A DNA stretch of 64,000 nucleotides, from NCBI GenBank assembly GCA_030430495.1, contig JAUIKM010000016.1, forward strand, positions 1 to 64,000, given 5' to 3'. The translations under genes and the position numbers were made by a program. The DNA is from a bacterium. Its GTDB lineage: Bacteria; Bacteroidota; Ignavibacteria; Kapaibacteriales; UBA7675. Under the pieces are notes generated by a model. That model saw nothing but the letters and a program-made list of their open reading frames with translations, searched no databases and was not told the DNA's origin. Of this stretch, positions 6,897 to 36,808 are shown in pieces (the first letter of the stretch is position 1; every line of letters begins with the position of its first letter).

Positions 6897-7568
6897 ATGG
6901 CTATTCTTCCGATTTATACTTTTGACCATCCGGTGCTGAAGCGCAAAACCAACGCCATTGAAGATATGGACGATGCGCTGGCGGAGCTGATCGAAAATAT
7001 GTTCATCACCATGGAAAATGCCGACGGGATCGGTCTGGCGGCCAATCAGGTGGGCATTTCGCGTTCGCTGACGGTGATTGATGTGGCGCTGATCAACGAT
7101 GAAGAGGACGACGGCGACGGCAAAACGCCGGAAGACCGCAAAAAAAAGAAGGACGCCGCGCGTGCCGCCGAGGCCGAAAAAAGCGCCGATGACGAAGAAA
7201 AAACGCCCGCTCGCAAGAAAATCGCGCTGATCAATCCGGTCATTGTTGACCTTGGCGGCGACGACGTCGACTACGTGGAGGGCTGTCTGAGCCTGCCGGA
7301 GCTGACGGGCACGGTGATTCGACCGGAGCAGGTGACGGTGAAGTATCTGGACCGCGACATGAACGAGCAGGAGCTGACGGCGAACGGCCTGCTGGCGCGC
7401 GTGATTCAGCACGAGGTGGACCACCTGCACGGCGTGTATTTTTTTGAGCGCATGACGCCGCTGCGCAAGGCGCGTCTGCACAACAAACTTAAACGCATCG
7501 CTCGCGGCATGACGCCGGCGGCTTACCCGCTCTACGAGGGAAACAGCAAAAAGCGCCGCATCATCTGA
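6897..7568 (+). CDS. def: Peptide deformylase with a charged insert
   Basis: Removes the formyl group from the N-terminal Met of new proteins, using a bound metal ion. All three signature motifs are intact: GIGLAANQVG (about 44-53), EGCLSLPE (128 onward, Cys metal ligand) and QHEVDHLHG (His172 and His176 ligands, Glu173 catalytic). Between motifs 1 and 2 lies an insert at about residues 68-107, made almost only of Asp, Glu, Lys, Arg, Ala and Gly, bringing the length to 223 aa against about 170-195 normally. It interrupts the region where other deformylases have a short beta hairpin. GGGAAACAC precedes the ATG. Confidence 0.95.
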   Translation: MAILPIYTFDHPVLKRKTNAIEDMDDALAELIENMFITMENADGIGLAANQVGISRSLTVIDVALINDEEDDGDGKTPEDRKKKKDAARAAEAEKSADDEEKTPARKKIALINPVIVDLGGDDVDYVEGCLSLPELTGTVIRPEQVTVKYLDRDMNEQELTANGLLARVIQHEVDHLHGVYFFERMTPLRKARLHNKLKRIARGMTPAAYPLYEGNSKKRRII

Positions 7569-7910
7569 CGGGCGTTTGACGTTTCTGCGACGTTCACCTG
7601 CGTTTTACCGACCGCTCAGGGCTGAAACCGGCCCGTTGACGTTTTTCCTCTTGTACACAATTTGTTTAAGCGGCATGTTGCGGAGGTCGAACCATCCGGA
7701 TGGTTGGGCTGTGGCGCGATCTGTAGGCGCATGGTGTTGGGTGAAGTGAAGAACCGCGGATTTCGGGGGTCGGCGGGCTGTGTGCCGGGGTCAAAAAAAA
7801 TTGGAAAAATGGCACGGTGGCGGCGGGGGTGGGGGACCCATTTTGGGTCCCAAATCCGGCCCGCGCTTAACTCGAAGTCTTTAAACTTAACTTGAAGACT
7901 TTTGTCTTGA
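7569..7910. other. Intergenic DNA before the tandem array, with G-rich hairpin
   Basis: No gene is supported. At about 7814-7856 a run of G-rich DNA leads into an inverted repeat, GGACCC-ATTTT-GGGTCC. A related G-rich stretch appears in reverse orientation near 36484-36523. Just before the array a near duplication, CTTAACTCGAAGTCTTT then CTTAACTTGAAGACTTT (7865-7901), is visible. Confidence 0.45.
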
Positions 7911-8703
7911 CGACGGCCGGACTGATAAACCGTCGACGGCCGGACTGATAAACCGACGACTACGGGACTGATCGTTTGACGACGGCCGGACTGATCACTT
8001 GACGAATGCCGGACTGATAAACCGACGAATGCCGGACTGATAAACCGACGACTGCGGGACTGATCATCCGACGAATGCCGGACTGATCAACCGATGACTA
8101 CGGGACTGATCGCTTGACGAATGCCGGACTGATCATCCAACGAATGCCGGACTGATAAACCGATGACGGCCGGACTGATCATCCGATGACGGCCGGACTG
8201 ATCATCCAACGAATGCCGGACTGATCATCCGACCACTGCCAGACTGATCATCCGATGACGGCCGGACTGATCGTTTGACGACTGCCAGACTGATCATCCG
8301 ACCACGGCCGGACTGATCATCCGACGACGGCCGGACTGATAAACCGATGACGGCCGGACTGATAAACCGATGACGGCCGGACTGATCATCCGATGACGGC
8401 CGGACTGATCATCCGATGACGGCCGGACTGATCGTTTGACGACGGCCGGACTGATCATCCAACGACTGCCGGACTGATAAACCGACGACGGCCGGACTGA
8501 TAAACCGACCACTGCCGGACTGATCATCCGACGACGGCCGGACTGATAAACCGACGACTACGGGACTGATCGTTTGACGACTACGGGACTGATCATCCGA
8601 CGAATGCCGGACTGATCGTTTGACGAATGCCGGACTGATAAACCGATGACGGCCGGACTGATAAACCGATGACGGCCGGACTGATAAACCGAAGAAGACA
8701 GGA
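7911..8703. repeat. Tandem array of 34 phased 23-bp units
   Basis: The hexamer ACTGAT recurs exactly every 23 bp from 7921 to 8680 (34 copies, no insertion or deletion), and a degenerate 35th unit reads ACTTGC. Each unit has two variable slots. Before the core: ACGGCC (17 units), AATGCC (8), ACTACG (4), ACTGCC (4), ACTGCG (1). After the core: AAACC (13), CATCC (13), CGTTT (5), with CACTT, CAACC and CGCTT once each. Units with CATCC form an imperfect palindrome centred on TGATCA. There are no unique spacers, so it is not CRISPR. The frames inside it are repeat artefacts. Function unknown; candidates are a multi-copy protein-binding site or a VNTR-type locus. Confidence 0.97.
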
Positions 8704-9017
8704 CTTGCACAACTGCTGTTTCACCTGCCGACTCCGGGCCGTCAAACATCTGCTCGTTCGCCCGCTTTGGTCGTGTTTAACACGCGCTCTGCACTTCTGA
8801 TCGCTTTGAGCTCCGCGCTGCGCGACGGGCTCAGGCTCTCATGACTTTTTTGTTCGTCGACGGGATTCGAGCCGGGCGTTGTTAAATCAGCGACAGGCTG
8901 AAGAAGTTCAGGTTGCGGGACGGGCTCGAGACTTGAGAGTTCTGTGGTTTGTCGCTGAGACTTCGAGCCCGAAGTGCGAGGGCTCGAGACAGACATGGAA
9001 CTCGATTGTTTGAGACT
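8704..9017. other. Intergenic DNA after the tandem array
   Basis: No gene is supported; an 84-codon minus-strand frame here is low-complexity and resembles nothing known. Around 8820-8870 lies a variant arm of the dispersed repeat (CAGGCTCTCATGACTTTTTTG...), facing the opposite arm at 9018-9074. Confidence 0.45.
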
Positions 9018-9074
9018 CGGTGGTTAACAAGAGGAAAAAGCAAGCCGCGGAGTGCAACGAAAGTGGCGAAGCGC
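9018..9074 (-). repeat. Dispersed intergenic repeat, arm F
   Basis: Reads GGTTAACAAGAGG then AAAAAGCAAGCCG, ending in GGCGAAGCG. It is the reverse complement of the arms at 25496 and 36112 and matches those at 41028 and 59379. A facing variant arm lies near 8820-8870, so the two bracket about 150 bp. Confidence 0.7.
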
Positions 9075-9148
9075 TCAGTCAGAAAGCCGCAATCGCGTGT
9101 GCGGCCGGCAAGCCTTTGTTTAACCGCGTCACACCGCAGGCGCCGGGA

Positions 9149-11116
9149 TCAATTCCCCGCCGCCGTGGCTTCCTCCAGGTAGTCGCGATAACGAACGATC
9201 GAGTTAAACATGCCCTGCGCCAGATCGTTGACGCCTTTCTTTGAAGCCAGATATTTTTCGTCGGACGGATTCGAGAGAAAAGCCGTCTCAAACAGCACAT
9301 TCGGCATCGAAGCGCCGACGAGCACAAAAAAACCGGCCTGATTGACGCCGCGGTTGTTAAGCGGAGTAGCCTTGCCGATCTCCTCCTGCAACATCTCGGC
9401 GAACTTTTCCGAGAGTTTAACAAATGCCTTTTGCGCCATGTTAACGACTATAAACTCTTCGTCCGTCAGCGTTTTGTAGCGGTCGGCGTTTTGCTCAAAC
9501 TTGATGACGGCGTTCTCGCGTTCAGCCACCTTGACGGCGTCTTCGTTGCGACCGGGACGCAGAATAAATGTCTCAAACCCGCGAGCGGTAGTGGACGCCT
9601 TCGCGACCGAGTTGGCGTGCACGCTGATAAAGAGTTTGCCGCCGGCTTCATTCGCAATCTGGCCGCGGCGGTAGAGTTCTATGAAAGTGTCGTCGTCGCG
9701 CGTGTACACCACCCTGGTGCCCGGCATGTTTTTCTCGATCAGTTTGCCCAGCGCCAGAGAAATGTTTAAAACCACGTCTTTTTCGCGCACGCCGTTGCCG
9801 CCGATGGCGCCGGGATCCTTGCCGCCGTGACCGGGATCGATAACGATGACGTCCAGTTTCCACTTCTCCGACTCGCGCGCCAGGCGCTCGTTGGCGTCGC
9901 CCCGCGGCTGCAATTGCACGCTGAATTCCACGACCGACGACGAGAGACGGCGGTGTTGTACGTCGACAACGGCAGAGTTAAACCGCAGGCGATACACCTG
10001 AATGCCGCGAATGTTTTCCTGCGCCACCGCCGCAATGCCGTCGTTGTCGGGCAGATTCTGCCACGAAGGCGCCTCGTGTCCCGTTTCCGGAAAACGGATA
10101 ATCAGGCGCGTGCCGTTAACTTCGGGGCGCTGGTAGGACGAAATCGGCGCGCCCGCCTCGAAACGCAGTTTAATCGTATTGCCGACCGTCTCAGCCTTGA
10201 CATCGGTAATGTTAACCGGTGTAAGCAACATGGCCGGGTCCAGCAGCGAAGCCAGCAGCGGCGAAGCCCGAACGCCCGTCGGCAGCGCCGAACGGCTGGA
10301 GTCGTTCACACCTTTGCGCCGTTTGAGATCGGGCGGCAGAATGTAATTGCTGCCCGGCGGCATGGTTAAACTGTCGTATGCGCGCATGGGCCTTTCAAAT
10401 CGCAACGGAGGCCTTGCCGCGGCCCCGCCATTCTGTACGTCAACCGGCGGGACGAAACTTTCCGCGTCGCCGTTCTCGCGAACATTCAGATCCGGCGGTA
10501 CGCGATAGTGGTCCGGCGTTGAGAGTTCAAGCGGCGGCCGGTTTGTCAATGTCTGTTTCGGTTCGCTCGGTTCCCGCCGCGGCCGTACGGGCCCCGGCGA
10601 AATATCTTCGGGCGCGCTTTCCGCGCTCAGGATCTGCGGCGGATAGTGAAGTTGATACTCGCCCACGGCGCTGCGACCCACATCGTACAAACCCAGCACG
10701 TGCAGCGCACGGAAAAAGGGCTCAGCGGGAATGTAAATGTTGTTGTCGCGTTCAATTGAAGGGTGCGTCATCTGCGCAACACGCACGCCGTCGGAGCTCT
10801 CGAGCGCCAGGTAAAAAGAGACGGAGGGACAATGCAGGATGCCCTGATCCAGGCGGATGGCGGTCCCGGCTTCGGTCATCGCGGCGCGCTGAAACAAACC
10901 GTCGGCAATGTCGTGCACGTTCAAGTATTCGCGCCCGCGAATAAAAGTGGCCGGCAACGCAGCGCGCTCGCCGTCCGGCAGACCGACGCGATAGGTTTTA
11001 ACCGGGTTGGGATGCAAGGCATGCGTCGTAGCGCCGGCAAACACACTTAACGCCAGCGCGAATACCGCGCTGAGAATCAACCGGGAAACTCTGTGGGTCC
11101 TTCGAATATTCCGCAC
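9149..11116 (-). CDS. N-acetylmuramoyl-L-alanine amidase, AmiC type with AMIN domain
   Basis: Exported zinc amidase that cuts the stem peptide from peptidoglycan. It has 655 aa. A hydrophobic signal segment (about 12-30) is followed by a region resembling a copper-amine-oxidase-like fold, a Pro/Arg-rich linker, an AMIN domain (about 295-395, wall or septum targeting) and the Amidase_3 domain (about 420-640). The domain shows IDPGHGGKDPGA (His ligand), REKD (Glu ligand), SVHAN (His ligand) and FETAFLSN (catalytic Glu). In this family activity is often switched on by EnvC-type LytM proteins, one of which is at 3139-4392. The gene is convergent with nothing and is followed by the tandem-array region. 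Confidence 0.93.
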   Translation of the reverse strand: MRNIRRTHRVSRLILSAVFALALSVFAGATTHALHPNPVKTYRVGLPDGERAALPATFIRGREYLNVHDIADGLFQRAAMTEAGTAIRLDQGILHCPSVSFYLALESSDGVRVAQMTHPSIERDNNIYIPAEPFFRALHVLGLYDVGRSAVGEYQLHYPPQILSAESAPEDISPGPVRPRREPSEPKQTLTNRPPLELSTPDHYRVPPDLNVRENGDAESFVPPVDVQNGGAAARPPLRFERPMRAYDSLTMPPGSNYILPPDLKRRKGVNDSSRSALPTGVRASPLLASLLDPAMLLTPVNITDVKAETVGNTIKLRFEAGAPISSYQRPEVNGTRLIIRFPETGHEAPSWQNLPDNDGIAAVAQENIRGIQVYRLRFNSAVVDVQHRRLSSSVVEFSVQLQPRGDANERLARESEKWKLDVIVIDPGHGGKDPGAIGGNGVREKDVVLNISLALGKLIEKNMPGTRVVYTRDDDTFIELYRRGQIANEAGGKLFISVHANSVAKASTTARGFETFILRPGRNEDAVKVAERENAVIKFEQNADRYKTLTDEEFIVVNMAQKAFVKLSEKFAEMLQEEIGKATPLNNRGVNQAGFFVLVGASMPNVLFETAFLSNPSDEKYLASKKGVNDLAQGMFNSIVRYRDYLEEATAAGN

Positions 11117-36018: not shown

Positions 36019-36808
36019 TGGGCCGATCGGTTGCAGCTGTCCAACCATCGGCAAGTATGCTATGAAAGTCCTTGTTTAAATTCCGCCTCCAGACCTGCAA
36101 GAGAAACCATCGCTTCGCCTCCTTCGCCCCAGCTCGGCGGCTTGCTTTTTCCTCTTGTTAATCACCGCGTTTCCGGCCCATGTGTTTAAGTCCGGCATCA
36201 AACATCACAGCGTCAAACCCGAAGCCAAACAAAAAAGTCAGAAGAGCCTGAACGAGGAGTCCGCCGACGAGTTCAAAGCGATCAAGTCAATGTCAAACAG
36301 CGCCGCTGCCGGCCATCAAGCGAGAAACAAACGACATTAACCACTGACGCCATGGAAGTCCAACAACGGAGTAAGTCGACATTTGAGACTGACGCGGCAC
36401 CCGGACGACAAGAGTGTGAAGTCTCTGTTTCAGCTGAAAATGCAGTCTGAAGAACTTGAGTCTGCACGCAAAAAAACGGGTGTGCCCCCAAATGGGTATC
36501 CCTCCCCCGCCGCCTGTCCGAAAAACTCCCGACACCGGGACGTTCCTCACCCGCCCCGGAAGATCCAGATTTTTTTGCGGAGCGCAGCAAAGCTTGCAGG
36601 CATACCCCGTCGGCACGTGAACCCAATGTGTGCGCGGGTCCTATGCCGCAGCGCGGCTGAAACTCCGGAAGAGCTTCGGCACGCACAAAATGATGCCCAC
36701 AGATCTTTCCGCCAAGCGGAAAAGACTGAACGTAGCACCTTCGCCGTCAAACGTTGCGACTTACGTGGTTAATCGGTCAAATCGGGAAGTCGCGCGGAGC
36801 AGCGCCGC
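36019..36808. other. Intergenic DNA with repeat elements
   Basis: No gene is supported although several frames of 60-134 codons overlap here on both strands. It holds dispersed-repeat arm C (36112-36169), a likely facing variant near 36221-36255, and, at about 36484-36523 on the minus strand, a G-rich block resembling 7814-7856. Confidence 0.45.
36112..36169 (+). repeat. Dispersed intergenic repeat, arm C
   Basis: Starts GCTTCGCCTCCTTCGCC, continues CTCGGCGGCTTGCTTTTTCC, and ends TCTTGTTAATCACCGCG. Same element as arms A and B with small changes. Confidence 0.7.

Follow-up and report, generated by a model that had tools for sequence, protein, structure and literature searches.

A 23-bp tandem array, probably a mosaic minisatellite, downstream of an undescribed structured RNA

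We analyzed a window of DNA, meaning the whole stretch of 64,000 nucleotides, in which a 23-bp tandem array occupies the spacer between the convergent def (+) and amidase (−) genes. Our preferred explanation for the array is a mosaic minisatellite needing no sequence-specific function, a reading to which we give a probability of about 0.62, and it seems to preserve, in a natural bacterial repeat, a record of exchange over short tracts. The structured RNA upstream of it, called R1 here, is more interesting than the array itself and worth study in its own right. With at least 150 matches to the T9SS sorting domain in the genome, the lineage appears to be Bacteroidota-like.

Anatomy and setting of the array

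TRF placed the array at 7909-8692, with a period of 23, 34.1 copies, and 0% indels. Together with a unit table, this bore out the original prediction of 34 ACTGAT cores at an exact 23-bp spacing without an indel; ACTGAT and the longer GACTGAT are each invariant in 34/34 units. The extent first proposed for the array stands up to 8690, the end of the last phased unit, but positions 8691-8703 are a degenerate 35th unit. Units are made up of one of five five-base 5′ words, one of six six-base middle words, and a 3′ word, and the earlier counts of the 3′ words were reproduced (AAACC, 13; CATCC, 13; CGTTT, 5; singletons, 3). The middle and 3′ words occur in 15 combinations, and 22 distinct units are found among the 34. 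Seven adjacent invariant columns have a probability of 0.003 under random placement, in a post hoc test. The 23-bp units are continuous and have no spacers, in agreement with the earlier statement that the array is not a CRISPR.

The flanks of the spacer are composed of dispersed modules, the left one being R1, and the array begins approximately 50 bp downstream of it (Table 1). The other modules may act as terminators, to judge from their sequences; no T run follows the 3′ hairpin of the window's R1 copy. A coding repeat was ruled out, because every frame of both strands contains stops (19 to 23 per frame on the + strand and 4 to 10 on the − strand). An assembly artefact appears unlikely, because the longest exact repeat within the array, 62 bp, is shorter than typical assembly k-mers.

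We searched the rest of the genome for the 23-mer, a check suggested in the original prediction, and found the phased pattern at no second site. The core was not enriched outside the array, with 60 occurrences of GGACTGAT observed versus 58.7 expected. None of 390 other genomes of the class contained the array, and none of them is of the same genus. The M23-recG-def gene order is also kept in a genome of the same family, G002, whose def locus has no array, a convergent response-regulator gene following def directly. A viral origin was rejected, the phased pattern being unmatched in viral contigs.

Table 1. Features of the def-amidase region of the window
Feature	Coordinates	Strand	Basis
def, peptide deformylase, upstream of the RNA and codirectional with R1	6897-7568	+	Pfam PF01327, E 3e-47; gene order in G002
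L1 promoter-upstream element, three phased direct repeats resembling LytTR-type sites (9-mers at 7589, 7611, 7632)	7589-7640	+	Conserved CG[TC]T boxes
Putative promoter: −33 CTTG, 7650-7653; −7 CATGTTGC, 7674-7681; constant spacing	7650-7681	+	Family conservation
R1 structured RNA, its 5′ hairpin starting at the inferred +1	7686-7857	+	Covariance model R1, 144.7 bits; covariation 0/500 shuffles
Tandem array, 23 bp × 34	7909-8690	None	TRF and unit table
Degenerate start of 35th unit	8691-8703	None	Unit table
Dispersed module B, terminator-like, hairpin ahead of a T run near 8845	8798-8870	+	Dispersed repeat; hairpin −10.2 kcal/mol; unlisted by a generic consensus scan
Dispersed module C, inverse-related to B, terminator-like	9016-9077	−	Dispersed repeat; terminator-like site 9058-9044 on −, number found not above shuffles
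N-acetylmuramoyl-L-alanine amidase, convergent, downstream	9149-11116	−	Pfam PF01520, E 2.5e-48

Origin of the array

In minimum spanning trees of the words, 13 of the 14 links are single-base steps and the intermediates are present in the array, so the proposal that the words come from fixed vocabularies instead of base-by-base drift fails. The middle and 3′ words vary independently, as had been supposed (mutual information, 0.446 versus 0.433 expected; permutation p = 0.43), and a weak dependence was detected between the 5′ and middle words (p = 0.013, one of eight tests). Column linkage is frequent at 1 to 4 bp, where 34% of the pairs have p < 0.05, and rare past 5 bp, and autocorrelation between neighboring units at lag 1 is not significant. 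The single-step links between words and the short range of the linkage both support a mosaic minisatellite.

The folding z scores of the array were −6.5 and −4.9 against dinucleotide shuffles. That signal was gone once the comparison was made with column-permuted arrays (z scores of 0.63 and 0.19, no better than the controls), and an RNA structure in the array was rejected.

A repeat census was based on a sample of approximately 1.83 Mb of the genome, enriched in contig ends. Other short-period arrays in this sample, some of them coding, also have 0% indels, so the phasing of the 23-bp array is not as special in its strictness as first thought. The 20-bp array L141, on contig C70, is unrelated to it in sequence and equally shuffled. 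The occurrence of L141 and of other indel-free arrays in the same genome supports a mosaic minisatellite. So do the absence of the array from the same-family locus and the 390 class genomes, its folding at the level of column-permuted arrays together with the lack of enrichment of GGACTGAT, and the differences in unit length and sequence among the arrays at R1 loci. L141 itself consists of two blocks, at 1-503 and about 960-1258, separated by a spacer that is partly duplicated; it adjoins a gene for a LytTR-type regulator, and contig C70 begins inside it.

In simulations using simple, crude models with conversion tracts of 5 to 20 bp, slippage alone matched the diversity, lag, and linkage of the array in 10 of 597 cases (1.7% of the diversity-matched runs), and a conversion-heavy regime (0.9 of events) did so in 12 to 31%. 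The array thus looks shuffled, as the recombinational shuffling of units proposed at the outset would have it, and short-tract exchange is favored because conversion-heavy simulations match more often than slippage alone. A minisatellite made by slippage or unequal crossover alone, with no separate conversion, is improbable: some simulated arrays with blocks of 3 to 8 units do match, and the array contains a 62-bp duplication, but matching runs are as rare as stated above, and the typical slippage arrays of this genome have clear lag signals, between neighbors at lag 1 in the 7-bp array L125 and from block duplication at lag 10 in the 21-bp array L128.

If the array is a mosaic minisatellite, a single 23-bp unit would have been amplified within the intergenic spacer, and point mutation would have made its copies diverge. 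Frequent short-tract, in-register exchange among units, which we infer to be the shuffling process, would then have redistributed the variants and left linkage over approximately 4 bp only. The position between the R1 gene and the terminator-like modules may be a place that tolerates such arrays. The array probably has no sequence-specific role, and it appears to lack a function. Against this reading, the invariant 7-bp core could reflect a constraint, and homologous recombination ordinarily involves longer tracts than the 5 to 20 bp of the simulations.

The R1 RNA family and its upstream region

The assignment of R1 to an RNA family is well supported. A covariance model built on 11 copies gave 46 matches in this genome at E ≤ 0.01, 38 of these at E < 1e-7, and the family numbers approximately 38 copies dispersed in intergenic regions. 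In 30 aligned copies, whose mean pairwise identity is 0.59, standard pairs fill 92.6% of the paired cells and 12 of the 24 pairs show two-sided changes; the alignment was fitted to the model structure, which biases these counts, but the controls are nonetheless far off, with 0 of 500 shuffles reaching the pairing and covariation values of R1 and slid structures being at most 55% paired.

The window contains a second, weaker copy (55 bits) at 36476-36701 on the − strand, with a promoter-like L1 element at 36713-36772. Outside this genome, G002 alone among 60 relatives was matched, weakly; a motif search gave two places in G002, faint relatives of R1 in a sister genus, and a phylum-wide sample gave one further match, weak and partial. 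Neither R1 nor the array has a match in Rfam 15 at the gathering threshold, the window yielding a tRNA only, and the best local match (E 0.087) is far under its own gathering score. Literature searches turned up no account of the array or of the R1 RNA. Within reach of the searches made, R1 is an undescribed structured RNA family.

It resembles an independent RNA gene more than a leader, because, by crude ORF calls, the gene before it is codirectional in 22 of 30 copies and the gene ahead is convergent in 21 of 28. A peptide in its G-rich end was rejected, since neither start codon nor frame is conserved in the alignment, inspected by eye. The self-complementary motif TCCGGA is found in the apical loop of the 5′ hairpin (a hairpin that spans 7686-7712 in the window copy) in 23 of 30 copies, and such loops could engage in kissing-loop pairing among R1 copies.

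The upstream regions of the 30 copies align without gaps. CG[TC]T boxes, phased at 22- and 21-bp intervals, hold fixed offsets and occur in 19, 25, and 28 of the copies, with all three boxes in 15 (0.0 expected from shuffles). NTTG (28/30) and CATGTT (21/30) also keep the same offset, and the inferred start is the first base of the 5′ hairpin. By sequence, the region resembles LytTR-type direct repeats joined to Bacteroidota −33/−7 boxes and is a putative promoter; nine LytTR-domain matches were found in the genome. The L1 element was also observed before another conserved start (TATGCTTG... CCGGCCGGGAATC...) at L090, L122, L139, and L140, perhaps marking a second RNA family.

Functional readings and comparison with known systems

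Arrays are found close downstream of 7 to 8 of 30 R1 copies, every one with a different unit; unit lengths are 20, 23, 24, 26, 63, and 90 bp, and the sequences differ. An association between arrays and R1 is not established, because 10 of 60 long intergenic regions devoid of R1 also have arrays, and the enrichment next to R1 (7-8/30 versus 10/60) is not convincing. No hidden 20- to 24-bp periodicity was detected in array-free R1 loci. A palindrome-like word, TTGCCTAGGCAAC, or near variants of it are dispersed in spacers, in the bodies after R1 at L191, L195, L200, L205, L211, and L219.

Functional readings of the array are possible, the positive evidence for them consisting of the phasing and the core alone. 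The array might serve as a functional 3′ body in a long transcript of R1, a multivalent repeat RNA running from the promoter at 7650-7681 and a start at ~7686 to terminator B at ~8845. A conserved promoter-like element and a structured RNA upstream, a terminator-like module after the array, and arrays in the same position at other R1 loci are consistent with this. Most R1 copies have no array, however; units are unrelated from locus to locus, arrays in 10 of 60 R1-free regions leave no clear enrichment, and the array has no special RNA structure and only putative transcription. We regard this reading as speculative and unlikely. Somewhat less likely still is the broader view that R1 comprises approximately 38 LytTR-controlled RNA genes, each joining a structured 5′ domain that stays constant to a 3′ body specific to its locus, and that the 23-bp array serves as one of these bodies, being expressed as repetitive RNA with variants reshuffled by recombination. 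It is very doubtful that the array is a phased series of sites bound by a regulator or a nucleoid protein, its 23-bp repeat spanning about two helical turns and GACTGAT being the contacted core: the phasing is perfect and the 7-bp core invariant in 34 units, but the genome has no other phased sites, the core is not over-represented elsewhere, the site lies between gene 3′ ends, away from gene promoters, and relatives do not conserve the array. The idea of units selected as distinct binding sites is likewise unsupported, as GGACTGAT is not over-represented elsewhere and no relationship is seen among the units of arrays at related loci.

CRISPR arrays share with the 23-bp array a regularly spaced, invariant short segment, but are built of repeats of ~23-47 bp and unique spacers of similar length, whereas the array has neither long repeats nor unique spacers. 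Elsewhere in the genome, at L081, L086, and L093, there are genuine CRISPR-type arrays, whose repeat is 37 bp long (GTCCGAGACC...GGATTGAAAC). The closer likeness is to bacterial minisatellites and VNTR loci with minisatellite variant repeats: the array is intergenic, head to tail, and locus specific, with variant units interspersed, its 34.1 copies at a period of 23 lie within the 10- to 100-bp unit range, and its variants derive from one another by point mutation (13/14 single-step links). It differs from them in that neighbors are not similar and two parts of the unit are almost fully at linkage equilibrium.

LytTR regulators bind direct repeats ~12 bp apart, located ~10 bp upstream of the −35 box (PMC6193735). 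The R1 element similarly has phased direct repeats upstream of a −35-like box (in at most 28/30 copies), spaced by ~21-22 bp with the last ~9-10 bp away from it; it has three repeats instead of two, and the likeness is one of sequence only. Its −7 box fits the flavobacterial types TAnnTTGY and TAnnTTTG (PMC9723704) except at the first base. Like multicopy bacterial structured RNA families, R1 has covarying helices and dispersed intergenic copies; unlike them, it matches nothing in Rfam 15 at threshold and is nearly confined to its lineage as far as tested. With approximately 38 covarying copies, seemingly one conserved promoter architecture, and a distribution that is nearly that of one genus as far as tested, R1 is an uncatalogued multicopy RNA.
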